From assembly GCA_012719455.1 (NCBI GenBank), contig JAAYAJ010000073.1, positions 1-47,808 of the forward strand: a stretch of 47,808 nt of DNA, given 5' to 3'. The position numbers and the translations under genes are program-made. Of the stretch, positions 30,646 to 42,429 are shown in pieces (position 1 is the first letter of the stretch; each line of letters opens with the position of its first letter). The stretch is from Acidobacteriota bacterium. Lineage in GTDB: Bacteria > Acidobacteriota > UBA6911. The notes beneath the pieces were generated by a model. The model did not search any database and was not told the DNA's origin. It was given only the letters and a program-made list of their open reading frames with translations.

Positions 30646-32052
30646 ATGCGTTTCAAGGGCACGCTGGTCCTCGTCCTGGTGGCCGCCGCGATCGGCGCCT
30701 GGCTCTACTTTTACGAGGTCCGGGGGAAGGAAGGCCGCGAAAAGGCGAAGGAGGCCGAAGGCCGGCTCTGGACACTTGAGGAGAAGGATGTCGCGGCGAT
30801 CGCCCTCATCTCCCCGGACGAACGGATCGAGGCCCGGCGGCAGGATGAGGGGGGCTGGCGCATCACCCTCCCGCGCGAGCTCGACGCCGACGGGGCGGAG
30901 CTGGACCGCCTGGCCCGCTCGGCCGCCACCCTCAGCCGCGGGGAGACCGTGGAAGAGGACGCCGCCGACCTCGGCAGGTTCGGGCTCCTGCCCCCCGGGT
31001 CGGGGGTCGAACTGACAGCCCGTGACGGGAAAAAATACCGGGTCGATTTCGGGGCCGACAACCCGACCGGCACCTTCACCTATGCCGCCCGCACCGGGGA
31101 GAAGACGGTGTTCCAGGTCCCGAGTGCCGCCGCCGAGTCCTTCCGCGTGAAACTGGACGACGTGCGCGACCGCACTCTCCTCCCCTTTGACCAAGTCGAA
31201 GCCGGGCAGCTCGAACTGGTCACCCCTAAGGGGCGGATCGCCGTCGTCAAGGACGGGGACGACCGGTGGTGGTTCGAGGACGTGGAAAAGCGGGAAGCCA
31301 GCGGCCCGGAAGTCCGGGGGATCCTCAACGCGCTGTCGCTCGACCGGATCCATGAATTCAGCGACCTGGGAACCGCAGAGTATTCGAACCCCGGGTTCGA
31401 CCGCCCCCTCATCGACGCCCGGGTCAAGTACGGACCCGCCGGGGCGACCGCGCGCCTCCTCGTCGGCACCGAACAGTCGAAGCTCCGCGCCGCGGCGGCT
31501 TCGATCACCCTCCCCCGCGCCGCCGACGGAGTCTACCTGGCCCGCGACGACGCGCGCCCCGCCCCGTTCTTCGTCGGGCAGGAACTGGTCGACAAGCTGC
31601 TGAAAACACCGGAGCAGATCCGGGACAAGGCCCTGGCCTCCTTCCAGCGCTGGGAGGCGGACACGATCCTCGTCTGGAACAGCAAGGGACAATTCGAGTT
31701 CCACAAATCGCAGGGAGAGTGGTACCTGGGCGCGGAGCGGAAAAAGGCGAAGTGGGACGCCGTCAACGGGATCCTGGACGCGCCGGGCTCCCCGGCGCTC
31801 CGCTGGATCGACCGCCCGGCGGCGGCGGCTTCCTACGGGCTCGACCGTCCCGTGATCCGCGTCGTCGTCAAGAAGGGGGGGGCGGTGCTGGCCGACCTGT
31901 CGCTTGGGAGCGCGGCCCCGGACGGCATCCACGCCCGCGCCGCGGGCGATCCCACGGTCAAGGTGGCCGACCCTGAAGCGATCCGGTGGCTGGACCTCGC
32001 CCGGGAGGAATACCTGGAGGTGGCGGCCGGGTCCGAAACCGGGGGGGAGTAG
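30646..32052 (+). CDS. DUF4340 protein of the ABC exporter operon
   Basis: A 468-residue protein with one N-terminal membrane anchor (about 5-22) and a large exported part that repeats DUF4340-type beta-rich modules, seen as recurring segments such as VKLDDVRDRTLLPFDQVEA and KTPEQIRDKALASFQRWEA, about 140 residues apart. DUF4340 proteins usually sit beside GldG homologues and are thought to be the periplasmic side of the transporter, an inference from context. The ATG lies 1 base after the GldG stop, with GGAGG 8 bases upstream. This is the last gene of the operon. Confidence 0.87.
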   Translation: MRFKGTLVLVLVAAAIGAWLYFYEVRGKEGREKAKEAEGRLWTLEEKDVAAIALISPDERIEARRQDEGGWRITLPRELDADGAELDRLARSAATLSRGETVEEDAADLGRFGLLPPGSGVELTARDGKKYRVDFGADNPTGTFTYAARTGEKTVFQVPSAAAESFRVKLDDVRDRTLLPFDQVEAGQLELVTPKGRIAVVKDGDDRWWFEDVEKREASGPEVRGILNALSLDRIHEFSDLGTAEYSNPGFDRPLIDARVKYGPAGATARLLVGTEQSKLRAAAASITLPRAADGVYLARDDARPAPFFVGQELVDKLLKTPEQIRDKALASFQRWEADTILVWNSKGQFEFHKSQGEWYLGAERKKAKWDAVNGILDAPGSPALRWIDRPAAAASYGLDRPVIRVVVKKGGAVLADLSLGSAAPDGIHARAAGDPTVKVADPEAIRWLDLAREEYLEVAAGSETGGE

Positions 32053-32068
32053 CGGAGGTTCCTAGCAG

Positions 32069-32097
32069 TTGCTATTTCATGGGGCGTCGGGTATACT
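32069..32097 (+). promoter_or_regulatory. Predicted promoter of the rimP-nusA-infB operon
   Basis: TTGCTA (32069-32074), a 17-base spacer and TATACT (32092-32097). Transcription would begin near 32104, about 12 bases before an intrinsic terminator and about 80 bases before rimP. Confidence 0.55.
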
Positions 32098-32115
32098 TTC
32101 CGTTGCTGCTTTCGC

Positions 32116-32143
32116 AAAAAGTGGGCAAGTGCCCACTTTTTTT
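32116..32143 (+). terminator. Intrinsic terminator in the rimP-nusA leader (attenuator?)
   Basis: AAAAAGTGGGC (32116-32126), loop AAGT, then GCCCACTTTTTTT (32131-32143): a perfect stem with a seven-T tail, the clearest intrinsic terminator in the window. It may end readthrough from the DUF4340 gene. Because a good promoter lies just upstream, it may also act as an attenuator of rimP-nusA-infB. Confidence 0.85.
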
Positions 32144-32181
32144 GTTTGGCCCGCCGTTGAAACTGCGGGCAGGGACGAAAC

Positions 32182-32685
32182 ATGGCCGTACGGGGGACGG
32201 GACCGGACGAATCCCTGGAGCTGAAAATCAAGGGGCTGGCCGAGCAGGTAGCCGCCTCCATGAGCATGGAAGTCGTGCTTGCCGAGGTCAAGGGGGAAGG
32301 GTCCCGGTCGGTTGTCCGGGTTTTCATCGATCAACCAACGGGCATCACCTTGGAGGACTGCGAGCGATACAGCAAGCGCTTCTCCGTGGCGCTCGACGTG
32401 GAAGACTGGATCCCGTCGAAATACACACTGGAGGTTTCCTCGCCGGGGGTCGACCGCCCCCTGGTCAGGGAAGCGGATTTCGCCCGTTTCCAGGGGGAAA
32501 ACGCCCGGGTACGGACGCGGATTCCCATCGAGGGGCAGAAGAATTTCAAGGGCAAGATCGTGATCGCCGGCGGGGGCGGGGTAACACTCGAGGTAGCGCC
32601 GGGCAGACATGTCGAAATTGCCATTACGGACATCGATAAGGCCAGATTGATCGCCGATTTAAGCAAAAAGCCGCAGGGGTCCTGA
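32182..32685 (+). CDS. rimP: Ribosome maturation factor RimP
   Basis: Assists 30S subunit assembly in the cytoplasm; 167 residues. The N-terminal domain shows VVRVFIDQPTGITLEDCERY and the characteristic LEVSSPGVDRPL, followed by the C-terminal SH3-like domain with LEVAPGRHVEIAITDIDKA. The start at 32182 is preceded by AGGGACGAAAC. It is the first gene of a classic rimP-nusA-infB-rbfA-truB operon, and nusA starts 3 bases after its stop. Confidence 0.95.
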   Translation: MAVRGTGPDESLELKIKGLAEQVAASMSMEVVLAEVKGEGSRSVVRVFIDQPTGITLEDCERYSKRFSVALDVEDWIPSKYTLEVSSPGVDRPLVREADFARFQGENARVRTRIPIEGQKNFKGKIVIAGGGGVTLEVAPGRHVEIAITDIDKARLIADLSKKPQGS

Positions 32686-32688
32686 ATT

Positions 32689-34236
32689 ATGTCGAACATT
32701 ATTGCGCAGATGATCGAGCAGATCAGCAAGGATAAGAACGTCGATCCCCAAATCGTCATTGCTGCGCTCGAAGACGCGATGGTGGCCGCGGCCCGAAAAT
32801 TCTACAAAACCGCCGAGGACATCCACGCGCGCTTCGACGAGGAAACAGGCATAGTGGAGATCTTCGCTGTCAGGCGCGTGGTGGAGACGGTAGAGGACCC
32901 CAACCTGGAGATTTCGCTCCAGGAAGCCAAGGAAATCGACGAGACACTGGAAATCGACAACACGGTTGAAATGCCCAAGCCCACGGACGTCCTGGGCCGG
33001 ATCTCCGCCCAGACCGCCAAGCAGGTCATCCTCCAGAAGGTGCGGGAGGCGGAACGACAGAACATCTACAACGAATACTCCGAAAAGATCGGCGAGATGG
33101 TCAACGGGGTGATCAAGCGTTTCGAGGGTCCGGACATCATCGTCGACATCGGTAAAACCGAAGCGATCCTCCCGATGCGGGAACAGTCGCGGGCGGACGC
33201 CTACAAGCAGGGGGAACGGGTGCGTGCCGTGATCACGCGCGTGCTCCCCGTAGCCAGGGGGCCGCAGGTCATCCTGTCGCGCACCGACCCGCAGATCCTG
33301 GTGCGCCTGTTCGAGATGGAGATCCCGGAAATCTACGACGGGACGATCGTGATCAAGAGCGCGGTACACGAGGCGGGGGACCGCGCCAAGGTGGCCGTCG
33401 CCTCCACGGACCGCGACGTCGACCCGGTCGGCGCCTGCGTCGGGATGAAGGGGTCGCGCATCAACTCGGTCATCCGCGAATTGCGGGGAGAGAAGATCGA
33501 CATCGTCCAGTGGTCGGAGGACATCGCCCAGTACGCGGCCAACGCCCTGAACCCGGCGAAGATCTCCAAGGTCCTCATCATCGACGCCGCCGAAAAACGG
33601 ATGGAAGTGATCGTCGAGGAGAAACAGCAGTCGCTGGCCATCGGCAAGAAGGGGCAGAACGTGCGCCTGGCCTCGCGCCTGATCGGCTGGCAGATCGACG
33701 TCAAGAGCGAGGAGCAAAAGAAGCAGGAGGTGCTCGGCATCATGGAGTCGTTGACCTCCTCCTCCACCTCCCTGTCCGAACTCGAGGGGATCAGCGATCG
33801 GATCATCGCCAGCCTGCGCGAGGCGGGGATCGAAAACGTCGAACGTATCCTCGAGCTGGATGAGGCGGGGCTTCGGGAAATCCCGGGGATCGGCGAGAAG
33901 ACCGCGGCCAGGATCATGGAAGTGGCCCACGACCTCTTTGAAGAGGTGGAAATCGAGGTCCCCGAGGGGGTTGAATTGCCTACGGCAATAGCGGCGGTCG
34001 AGGAAGAGACCACGGCGGAAACGGACGAGCCACAGGCGGAGGAACAGGAGCCGGAACCCCCGGTGGACGCGGAAGCCCCGGTCGTGGAAGAGACCCCGGC
34101 GGAAGCAGATGAGCCGCAGGCGGGGGAACAGGAGCTGGAGCCCCCGGCGGTCGAGGAAGAGACCACGGCGGAAGCCGAAGGGGGGGAACGCCCGGCGGAA
34201 ACGGAAACTCAGCCGGAAGAGGATGCCGCCGAATAA
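32689..34236 (+). CDS. nusA: Transcription termination/antitermination factor NusA
   Basis: Binds RNA polymerase and promotes pausing, termination or antitermination. The 515 residues contain the N-terminal domain, S1 (MVNGVIKRFEGPDIIVDIGK), KH1 and KH2 (VGACVGMKGSRINSVIREL, AIGKKGQNVRLASRL) and a helix-hairpin-helix segment (LREIPGIGEKTAARI, about 400-415). The last 80 residues are a very acidic Glu/Pro/Ala tail with internal repeats instead of the usual AR domains. rimP ends 3 bases upstream. A gap of 119 bases separates it from infB, where many bacteria carry ylxR; no ylxR is seen. Confidence 0.96.
   Translation: MSNIIAQMIEQISKDKNVDPQIVIAALEDAMVAAARKFYKTAEDIHARFDEETGIVEIFAVRRVVETVEDPNLEISLQEAKEIDETLEIDNTVEMPKPTDVLGRISAQTAKQVILQKVREAERQNIYNEYSEKIGEMVNGVIKRFEGPDIIVDIGKTEAILPMREQSRADAYKQGERVRAVITRVLPVARGPQVILSRTDPQILVRLFEMEIPEIYDGTIVIKSAVHEAGDRAKVAVASTDRDVDPVGACVGMKGSRINSVIRELRGEKIDIVQWSEDIAQYAANALNPAKISKVLIIDAAEKRMEVIVEEKQQSLAIGKKGQNVRLASRLIGWQIDVKSEEQKKQEVLGIMESLTSSSTSLSELEGISDRIIASLREAGIENVERILELDEAGLREIPGIGEKTAARIMEVAHDLFEEVEIEVPEGVELPTAIAAVEEETTAETDEPQAEEQEPEPPVDAEAPVVEETPAEADEPQAGEQELEPPAVEEETTAEAEGGERPAETETQPEEDAAE
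33997..34200 (+). repeat. In-frame repeats coding the NusA acidic tail
   Basis: The block V-E-E-E-T-T-A-E followed by DEPQAEEQE-x-EPP recurs. Copies begin at 33997, 34081 and 34150, the second and third slightly diverged, the last truncated. At DNA level GTCGAGGAAGAGACC is kept. All spacings are multiples of three. Confidence 0.75.
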
Positions 34237-34355: not shown

Positions 34356-37184
34356 ATGGATAAAATAACCGTCGCGGAACTGGCGACAGAATGTTCGGTA
34401 AAAAATCAGGTCGTCCTCGCTGAACTCAAGCGGATGGGACTGTATGTTTTTTCACCGACCGCCACCATCGACGCCGGCTTCGCGGAAACCATCCGGAAGA
34501 AGATCTTCTCCCAGCGCGAAGCCGAAGCCGCAAAGGCCCTCGAGGCGGAAAAGAAGAAGGAGTCCGACCGAAAGACCGCCGCGGGGAAGAAGAAAGCAGC
34601 CAGCAAGCCGGCCGCCAAGAAGCCGGCAGCCAAGAAGCCCGCAGCCAAGAAGTCGGCGGCTGAGAAGTCAGCGGCTGAGAAGCCGGCCGCCAAGAAGGCC
34701 GCGCCCAAGCCCGCCGCACCGCGCAAGGCGCGCAAAAGCCCGCAACCGGTTCCCGAGGTAAAACCGGAGGAGGAGGCCCCCAAGGTCTCCCTCGCCCCCC
34801 GCAAGGGGCGCAAGTATTACGACCGGGAAACGGACGAACTGGTGGATGTGACCGAAGTCAAGCCGGAGGAGGAGGCGCCGAAAACGGAAGAAACGCCTGC
34901 ACCTGCGGCGGAAGCGATGGAAGAAACGGCTCCCGCGCCGACGCCTCCGGAGGCGGAAGCTGCGGATCATCCGGCCCCGGCTGAAGCACCGGCGCCTGCG
35001 GTCGTCGCCCCAGAGAAACCGGCCAAGGAAGAAGAGACCCCGCTCGAACCGTGGTTCCTCCCCCCGAAACCGGCTCCCAAGCCCGCTCCCAAGCCGGCGC
35101 CCGAAAGCGCGCCCCCTGCGACGGCCAAAGAAGCCCAAACGGCCGAGGCCGCGCCAGGCGCCACGCAGGGCACCGGGGCGGTGACCATCAAGAAGATCGT
35201 CGTACCGAAGACCAAAACCAAGATCCTCATGCGGACCAGCGCCGAAAAAACGGTCACCCCCGAAGCCCCCAGCCGTGTCCTCAAGGGACTGCGTGACACC
35301 AGGCCCGCCTTCTCAAAGCCGGGCGCACCCAAGAGGCTGGTCCGGAAGCGGCGGTCGGAGAGGACGCCGGCCCCCGAAAGGGTCGCCAAGGTCGTGGATT
35401 TGCCGCGCCCGCCCGCCAACCCGGAAGATTACAAGCCGATGACCATCACCGAAGGAGTCACCATCAAGGAGCTGGCGGAGAAAATGGACATCAAGTCCAA
35501 GTACATCATCCAAAAGCTCATTTCCAAGGGAATCCTGGCCTCCATCAACCAGACGCTGGATGTCGAAGCCGCCAGGGAGGTGTGCGCCGAATTCGGGTTC
35601 CGGGCCGACGTCATCAGCTTCGAGGAAGAGGCGGTATCCAAGCAGGAAGTGCCCGACAACATAGAAGACTACGTCGCGCGCCCCCCCGTCGTCACCATCA
35701 TGGGGCACGTGGACCACGGTAAGACTTCGCTGCTGGACGCCATCCGTGAAACCAACGTGCAGGCATCGGAAGCGGGGGGAATCACCCAGCACATCGGCGC
35801 CTACCAGGTGGCGATCAATGATCGCAACATCTCCTTCCTCGACACCCCGGGGCACGAGGCCTTCACCATGATGCGCTCCCGCGGGGCCCAGGCGACGGAC
35901 ATCGTCGTGCTGGTCGTCGCCGCCGACGACGGCGTGATGCCTCAGACGATCGAGGCGATCCACCACGCCCGGGCGGCCAGCGTCCCCCTCATCGTGGCCG
36001 TCAACAAGATCGACAAGCCGGGGGCCCAGATCGACCGGGTGAAGCAGGCCCTGGCAGACCAGGGGTTGCTCGCCGAGGACTGGGGCGGGGACACTGTCAT
36101 GGTCCCGGTGTCAGCCAAGCAGAAGACCAACATCGATCTGCTGCTGGAGATGATCCTCCTGGTTGCGGACATGAAGGACCTCAAGGCCAACCCCAAGCGG
36201 CTGGCGTCGGGGGTGGTGCTCGAGGCCAAGATCGACAAGGGGCGCGGGTGCGTCGCGACGGTCCTGGTCCAGAACGGCACCCTCCGGCTGGGGGACAACG
36301 TCGTTGCGGGCTCTGTCCACGGGCGCGTGCGCGCCTTGATCAACGACCGCGGCCGCCACCTCGATTCCGCCGGGCCCTCCGTCCCAGTCGAGATTCAGGG
36401 GCTGCAGGAGGTCCCGATGGCGGGTGACCTCATCCAGGTGTTCGAGGACGCAGCCAAGGCGCGCCAGGTCGTGGAATACCGCAAGGCCAAGGACCGCGAA
36501 CAGTCGCTGCAGAAATCGGCCCGCCTGTCGCTGCAGGCCCTGTACGAACAGATGCGCGAGGGAACGGTCAAGGAACTCCCCCTCATCATCAAGGCGGACG
36601 TCCAGGGTTCGGTGGAAGTAGCCTGCGAGATGCTCAACAAGCTGGGGACGGAAAAGGCCAAGGTGAAGATCCTCCACAGCGGCGCGGGGGCGGTGACCGA
36701 GACCGACGTGCTGCTGGCCTCCGCCTCCAACGCCATCGTCATCGGGTTCAACGTGCGCCCGGTGCCCAAGGCGCAGGAACTGGCCGACACCGAGGGGGTG
36801 GAAATCCGGCTCTACACCGTGATATACAACCTGACCAACGACATCAAGGCCGCGATGATCGGGATCCTGGAAAAGACGTCCCAGGAGAAACATCTGGGTC
36901 GGGCCGAGGTCCGGGACACCTTCCGGGTCCCCAAGTTCGGCGTCATCGCAGGATCCTACGTCGTCGATGGCATCATCCGCCGCAATTCGGAGGCGCGCCT
37001 GCTCCGGGACAACGCGGTGGTTCACGAAGGGAAGATCGCCTCGCTGCGACGTTTCAAGGATGACGTTACGGAGGTCAAGTCGGGGTTCGAGTGCGGCATC
37101 GGGTTCGAGCACTTCTCCGACGTCAAGGTGGGTGATATCATCGAAGCGTACGTCATCGAGAAGGTCCAGCCGACTTCTCTGTAA
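34356..37184 (+). CDS. infB: Translation initiation factor IF-2
   Basis: GTPase that places initiator tRNA on the ribosome; 942 residues. An IF2_N domain (1-50) comes first, then a long low-complexity Lys/Ala/Pro and Glu/Pro region (60-330), a second IF2_N domain (about 363-415), and the GTPase with GHVDHGKT (450-457), DTPGHE (496-501) and NKID (550-553). Domains II, III and the C-terminal initiator-tRNA domain follow and end at about 940. Only a distant GAGG precedes the ATG. The linker contains a six-copy 15-base repeat. Nothing in the catalytic parts is unusual. Confidence 0.97.
34605..34694 (+). repeat. 15-bp tandem repeat in the IF-2 linker
   Basis: Six in-frame copies of a 15-base unit coding K-[PS]-A-A-[KE], from AAGCCGGCCGCCAAG onward. 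The first three units are nearly identical and the fourth and fifth have changed to SAAE. Such Lys/Ala linkers are flexible and vary in length between strains. Confidence 0.85.
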
Positions 37185-42354: not shown

Positions 42355-42429
42355 TGGGGCGTCGTCAAGCGGTAAGACACAGGTCTTTGGCACCTGCATT
42401 CGGAGGTTCGAATCCTCCCGCCCCAGCCA
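42355..42429 (+). tRNA. trnQ: tRNA-Gln (anticodon TTG)
   Basis: A complete cloverleaf of 75 bases. The acceptor stem TGGGGCG (42355-42361) pairs with CGCCCCA (42419-42425); the discriminator is G and CCA is encoded. The anticodon arm CAGGT/ACCTG encloses the loop CTTTGGC, giving anticodon TTG (reads CAA, and CAG by wobble). The T arm GGAGG-TTCGAAT-CCTCC is perfect. It lies between ispE and prs. Confidence 0.97.

Follow-up and report, generated by a model that had tools for sequence, protein, structure and literature searches.

In the 47,808-nucleotide contig JAAYAJ010000073.1 of an Acidobacteriota bacterium (hereafter the window, meaning this whole stretch), a promoter and a candidate transcription attenuator are placed one after the other ahead of the genes rimP, nusA and infB, all on the forward strand. 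The -35 box TTGCTA (32069-32074) and the -10 box TATACT (32092-32097), both read directly from the sequence, are separated by a 17-nt spacer within 32069-32097 and together score 9/12 to the consensus; their position predicts a transcription start near 32104. About 20 bases beyond the promoter stands the rimP-leader hairpin of 11 bp (32116-32141), recognised by its sequence, its fold and its conserved core GTGGGC/GCCCAC, with the 5' arm AAAAAGTGGGC (32116-32126), the loop AAGT (32127-32130) and the 3' arm GCCCACTTTTT (32131-32141). A T-tract, T7-G-T3 (32137-32147, read from the sequence), overlaps the outer stem. The initial annotation had described a TTGCTA-N17-TATACT promoter followed by a terminator at 32116-32143 ahead of rimP, and we found both (32069-32097 and 32116-32147), except that the arms of the hairpin stop at 32141 and an end at 32143 takes in part of the T-tract. 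The T-tract ends 34 nt before rimP, whose ATG at 32182 is separated from the last hairpin position, 32141, by 40 nt. The gene rimP itself (32182-32685; Pfam RimP_N, E 1.6e-21, and DUF150_C, E 9.6e-17) is followed by nusA (32689-34236; NusA_N, E 8.7e-35, KH_5 and HHH_5) and by infB, encoding IF2 (34356-37184; IF-2, E 5.5e-40, and IF2_N). The upstream neighbour, outside the attenuator, encodes a DUF4340 protein (30646-32052; Pfam DUF4340, E 1.2e-36).

With a predicted start near 32104, the hairpin would therefore begin about 12 nt into the transcript, and the leader RNA 32104-32148 folds as the terminator hairpin with -17.0 kcal/mol (z -3.0). This hairpin is nearly symmetric and flanked by A- and T-tracts, so that antisense transcription (minus strand) toward the DUF4340 gene could also be stopped at it. 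A second hairpin, GCCCGC (32149-32154)/GCGGGC (32165-32170), occupies 32149-32170 on the forward strand between the terminator and the start codon of rimP. Because it lies 3' of the predicted stop point, it could not prevent termination; it might influence the translation of rimP. It is retained in the two closest loci compared, L027 and L039, and a different possible hairpin, GCCTG...CAGGC, is seen at its site in L030 and L036.

Pattern scans of the window gave little by themselves. The promoter pattern alone was at chance level (1 found over 8 kb, against a mean of 0.8 in shuffles), and a loose terminator scan of 8 kb found 13 matches against a shuffle mean of 9.4 (sd 2.8). A stricter filter applied to the whole window left 6 terminator-like matches, among which the rimP-leader hairpin was the most stable and one of the other five was its own reading on the complementary strand. 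In the 2.79-Mb genome, a single site matches the stem core with its 4-nt loop. What raises the promoter and hairpin above chance is thus their conservation in related sequences, not the scan. Under the strict filter, intrinsic terminators are few in the window (6 in 47.8 kb, two of them the rimP-leader hairpin on either strand), and this scarcity hints at other termination, such as that by Rho.

The hairpin is widely conserved in the phylum. Our sample comprised 149 Acidobacteriota genomes, 128 of them with RimP, and terminators were called over the 480 nt that precede the RimP domain in all 128. The strict motif, defined as GTGGGCN{2,10}GCCC[AG]CTTTT, was present in 59 leaders, another GGG/CCC terminator in 51, some other terminator in 8 and none in 10; that is, a terminator-like hairpin lies upstream of RimP in 118 of 128 genomes, but the hit in one of them (G140), scored automatically as a GGG/CCC terminator, proved spurious on visual inspection, and G140 is not among the 109 leaders described next. 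A paired GTGGG core with a T-rich tail was found in these 109 of the 128 leaders. The fair figure for conservation of the core is its use in 109 of the 118 leaders having any terminator, since the near-invariance of the core columns is largely due to the GTGGG anchor used for selection. The 12 nt after the core hold 9.1 T on average among the 109 homologues, a T-rich tail having been an inclusion criterion, and the pattern TT[ACG]TTT follows the core within 16 nt or less in 51 of them, a count made without a background estimate.

The pairs flanking the core vary in a compensating manner. On one side we counted A-T in 81 leaders, G-C in 18, G-T in 9 and C-G in 1; on the other side, C-G in 76, T-G in 21, T-A in 5, G-T in 1 and no pairing in 6. 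The two arms, GTGGG and CCCAC, lie 5 to 10 nt apart. The compensating pairs and the variable spacing fit an RNA hairpin rather than a DNA operator, an identity that the palindromic AGTGGGC-N4-GCCCACT could otherwise suggest. Binding of a repressor to the inverted repeat is extremely improbable in view of this variable arm spacing, of the T-G pairs that break the symmetry in 12 of the 109 leaders, and of the one-sided T-tract, which suits a terminator, although the T-rich tail had served for inclusion.

The stem is also largely specific for rimP. We found 66 distinct sites of the strict motif, spread over 63 of the 149 genomes; 59 of the 66 are within 700 nt upstream of rimP and on its strand. 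In 407 kb of Acidobacteriota loci, GTGGG was present in 59 of 64 terminators upstream of rimP and in 11 of 49 elsewhere; ten of these 11 were readings of the rimP-leader hairpin on the complementary strand, leaving 1 of 39. The Fisher p of 8.7e-15 for rimP versus elsewhere was computed before these ten readings were removed and ignores relatedness. Some genomes, drawn from two collections, are present twice in this comparison and in the count of neighbours at 87 loci given below.

Conservation extends to the promoter. Among 21 loci compared from the family and class, the window included, a TTGCTATTT-N-TATACTT block was found at matching places before the hairpin in 9, two of which (L030 and L036) are identical over the block; the search pattern for the block missed L043, though a leader with a AGAGTGGGC stem exists there. 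Phylum-wide, a -10-like hexamer (5 or 6 of 6 positions) was present in the 67 nt before the hairpin in 55 of the 109 GTGGG leaders, compared with 336 of 2180 shuffled sequences and with 8 of 97 control windows taken farther upstream. A recognisable -10 box is therefore seen in about half of the GTGGG leaders, the other half having none by the same rule. From these comparisons, the order of promoter and hairpin is conserved within the genus and beyond. Whether relatives keep this order had been raised in the initial annotation, which also offered the alternative that the promoter is not real; the conserved block and hexamers answer the former in the affirmative and speak against the latter.

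That alternative had a second half, namely that the hairpin only ends the DUF4340 operon, the promoter being spurious or the true start lying past 32143. The DUF4340 stop codon is indeed 63 nt 5' of the hairpin and on the same strand. Among 87 loci in which the sequence reaches at least 900 nt beyond the RimP domain on its 5' side, a DUF4340 or GldG-like gene was found upstream of rimP in just 11, and the hairpin persists in most loci, beside unrelated upstream genes. We reject the terminator-only explanation as highly improbable because the neighbour is so rarely present. It also fails to account for the conservation of the promoter block, which lies between the DUF4340 gene and the hairpin, and terminators elsewhere seldom carry this stem (the 1 of 39 above).

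Taken together, the element is very probably a rimP-leader transcription attenuator, a member of a known and very widespread class. Sequence comparison establishes its parts, its conservation and its specificity for rimP, and the start point, termination in this organism, its extent and its setting by NusA are inferred. Other identities were also considered. A riboswitch, a T-box or another Rfam element was rejected, the sole match at gathering score in the window being a tRNA at 42355-42426. The best sub-threshold match in the leader was STnc390 (32.7 bits with a gathering score of 50, E 1.7e-5), whose alignment covers the -10 region and the hairpin and which we took for a terminator look-alike. 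An antiterminator was dismissed as well, there being hardly any space for it before the hairpin.

Leaders of rimP outside Acidobacteriota were also compared. In Bacillota, the motif GAGTGGGN{3,11}CCCACTCTTT was found in 53 of 81 genomes, and RimP lay 700 nt or less downstream of it in 29 of the 30 loci checked among these 53 genomes. In Spirochaetota, where we examined 40 of the 50 genomes with RimP, 31 of the 40 have a terminator ahead of rimP, with a GGG/CCC or GTGG/CCAC stem in 9 and other stems in 22, of which 15 contain GAGTC by our own count. Among the loci of this phylum (L289-L338), the stem alternates between GAGTGG and GAGTC types. Of the ten Spirochaetota without a RimP_N match, eight have, by eye, a divergent RimP-like frame ahead of nusA, seven of these without a terminator above the threshold used, and the remaining two (G186 and G189) have neither such a frame nor a hairpin. 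Two hairpins, CCCCGA/TCGGGG and GGGCT/GGCCC, precede rimP in E. coli. In the Desulfobacterales (loci in the range L056-L110), most of the rimP leaders listed contain, judged by eye, a GGAACGGGC-loop-GCCCGTTTTTGTATTT block, whose loop has 4 nt (ATCT or GTCT, for example) and whose flanks are strongly conserved; L054, L075 and L106 were without the block in the stretch viewed.

How the attenuator might work can be outlined as follows. RNA polymerase would initiate near 32104 and transcribe the terminator hairpin after about 12 nt; a share of the transcripts would end at about 32143-32148, giving a leader RNA of about 40-45 nt, and rimP-nusA-infB would be expressed only by readthrough. Because the transcript ahead of the hairpin is hardly long enough to fold in another way, control would most likely be exerted by proteins on the elongation complex. 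NusA, the most likely effector, would favour formation of the hairpin and termination, so that much NusA would lead to less readthrough and hence to less NusA. An attenuator of this kind would probably let the cell throttle the output of its own transcription and translation factors.

We regard this explanation as a whole, an attenuator with NusA as its most likely effector, as likely to be correct, and NusA is probably the main effector in this organism, by analogy with Bacillus subtilis and E. coli. A passage in PMC12288461, citing Mondal 2016, reports that B. subtilis NusA autoregulates via termination in its own leader, in line with the NusA-dependent termination to which the initial annotation had referred, and transcripts of the E. 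coli operon increase when NusA termination is reduced (reported in part of PMC6511841). In the window, nusA is likewise downstream in the gene cluster, and a response to NusA would be the analogous behaviour. As for NusG, by our own count on the alignment the protein of this genome has Gly82-Thr83 at the place of E. coli Ser85-Val86, and the corresponding B. subtilis residues are Asn81-Thr82 according to a passage in PMC12288461, suggesting no more than a half resemblance to the pro-pausing type.

Another possible control is relief of the attenuator by CspA-family cold-shock proteins on a temperature downshift. CspA proteins reportedly act as antiterminators, and relief by cold-shock proteins is an idea said to concern the E. 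coli metY-nusA-infB region. In its favour, cold induces the E. coli operon, in which two terminators, t1 and t2, precede rimP (described in part of PMC6511841). We nevertheless consider it very unlikely, since the E. coli leader, which contains metY and two hairpins, has another architecture, and a role of CspA here would be by analogy; such relief is in any case compatible with NusA control and not exclusive of it.

Several observations weigh against the NusA-controlled attenuator. No hairpin was found within 480 nt of the RimP domain in 10 of the 128 RimP genomes, and in Spirochaetota the stem is mostly of different sequence and 9 of 40 genomes are without a terminator. NusA may also have little to add here: according to part of PMC8060035, B. 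subtilis NusA helps suboptimal hairpins or suboptimal U-rich tracts, whereas the hairpin of the window is strong and its T-tract is broken only after seven uninterrupted T. Finally, there are genomes that have nusA and no rimP. Of the 149 Acidobacteriota genomes, 21 have no RimP match and 17 of these have nusA; 13 of the 17 were usable, G055, G098 and G165, which read N upstream of nusA, and G056, which lies at a contig edge, being left out. When the rule used for the RimP leaders was run on the 480 nt preceding the NusA domain, a terminator was found in 0 of 13, while an exact TATAAT ended within 90 nt of the NusA domain in 12 of 13. With a looser cut over about 1.2 kb, two hairpins appeared, both with other stems, in G130 (225 nt away) and G159 (976 nt away).

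Simple NusA feedback would not predict that the hairpin is absent from these genomes, although the absence counts as a single evolutionary event. In the NusA phylogeny, all RimP-less genomes group together (14 rows, a single change) beside the RimP-bearing G042 and G057, which likewise have no hairpin. Since these two already lack it, the hairpin may have been lost first. These findings bear on a different reading, in which the main reader of the hairpin is not NusA but RimP or some other protein that recognises its GTGGG/CCCAC stem. That the core is common by sequence and not only by pairing (109 of 118), that the stem is found mostly ahead of rimP, and that RimP-less genomes keep nusA and a TATAAT but not the hairpin would all agree with a RimP reader, and feedback by RimP is called possible in part of PMC2965389. 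We still regard it as unlikely. The loss of RimP is a single event and its nearest RimP-bearing family is hairpin-less, so that the two losses may be unrelated; the literature covered, by titles and some passages, gave no report of RimP acting on termination; and effects of NusA are reported experimentally in two species (in the passages of PMC12288461 and PMC6511841 mentioned above). In the RimP-less clade (L266-L282), we also noted short NusA frames (345-422 aa compared with 516 in the genome of the window), which suggests that a C-terminal part is missing; a few RimP-bearing genomes have equally short frames. In several genomes of family f18 (e.g. G153, G123 and G116), RimP_N matches are split or start at profile position 29-35, as if an insertion interrupts the N-domain of RimP.

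The core might instead be a code read directly by a protein on the elongation complex, most likely by the N-terminal domain of NusA; if so, the terminator would be tuned to a factor of its own operon, and RimP as the reader of the core would be a sister version of this proposal. Insertions in the NusA N-domain accompany altered stem cores in two groups: about 40 residues with GCGGCC in G064, G075 and G095, and about 70 residues with GGGGGC in G085 and G119 (L372 and L373). In G109 an insertion at a different place goes with a retained GTGGG. The stems other than GTGGG in G141, G078 and G040, which have no insertion, speak against the code. A crude length filter also flagged G058, G076, G121 and G050, which had weak second matches and were kept out of the insertion group. 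On supported branches the comparison comes down to 2 independent pairs, one in the expected direction and the other showing no difference in the stem, and we regard the code as a tentative proposal that is rather doubtful. The RimP-less comparison thus suggests RimP and the NusA-insertion comparison suggests NusA, each from one or two events. The insertions of about 40 residues (G064/L173, G075/L176 and G095/L371 by listing, and G109/L374) look like partial internal duplications.

Lastly, we compared the leader of the window with known systems. In the part of Naville & Gautheret 2010 (PMC2965389) that describes it, the rimP-leader is a short terminator with a GGGc...gCCC stem and a U-stretch, located 4-130 nt ahead of the gene that opens rimP-nusA-infB, specific to rimP leaders and having no visible antiterminator. 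The window agrees with this description in its position ahead of rimP in the rimP-nusA-infB gene order (by Pfam matches), in the GGGc...gCCC form of its stem AAAAAGTGGGC/GCCCACTTTTT, in the T7-G-T3 that follows as the U-stretch and in the distance of 40 nt from terminator to gene. Nor is an antiterminator visible in it, only a 3-bp helix being found in the roughly 12 nt after the predicted start, and the specificity is matched by the 59 of 66 strict sites before rimP and by the single place in this genome. It departs from that description in that the stem has an A/G-GTGGGC form, accompanied by a promoter and counted across Acidobacteriota. The Rfam family RF01770, labelled 'rimP' and gammaproteobacterial (in part of PMC5471319), shares by name the operon and the position but differs, the E. 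coli leader having metY and two hairpins; it was absent from the gathering-score matches in the window and from the 7 matches with E<=10 in 31900-32300. Among open-licence papers surveyed by title, a set outside which the supplement of PMC2965389 falls, there was no work on the rimP-leader element in Acidobacteriota. The arrangement pointed out by the initial annotation, a promoter directly followed by a terminator, is that of the class of PMC2965389 and has a mapped case in Streptococcus agalactiae, where, as reported in part of PMC4448216, transcription ends 31 nt after its start ahead of rimP-nusA-infB (gbs0413-gbs0418), a short leader RNA was seen by RNA-seq and NusA feedback was proposed. 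The layout is the same in the window, the short RNA being observed in S. agalactiae and only predicted here, and what is new is an acidobacterial example of an already known attenuator class.
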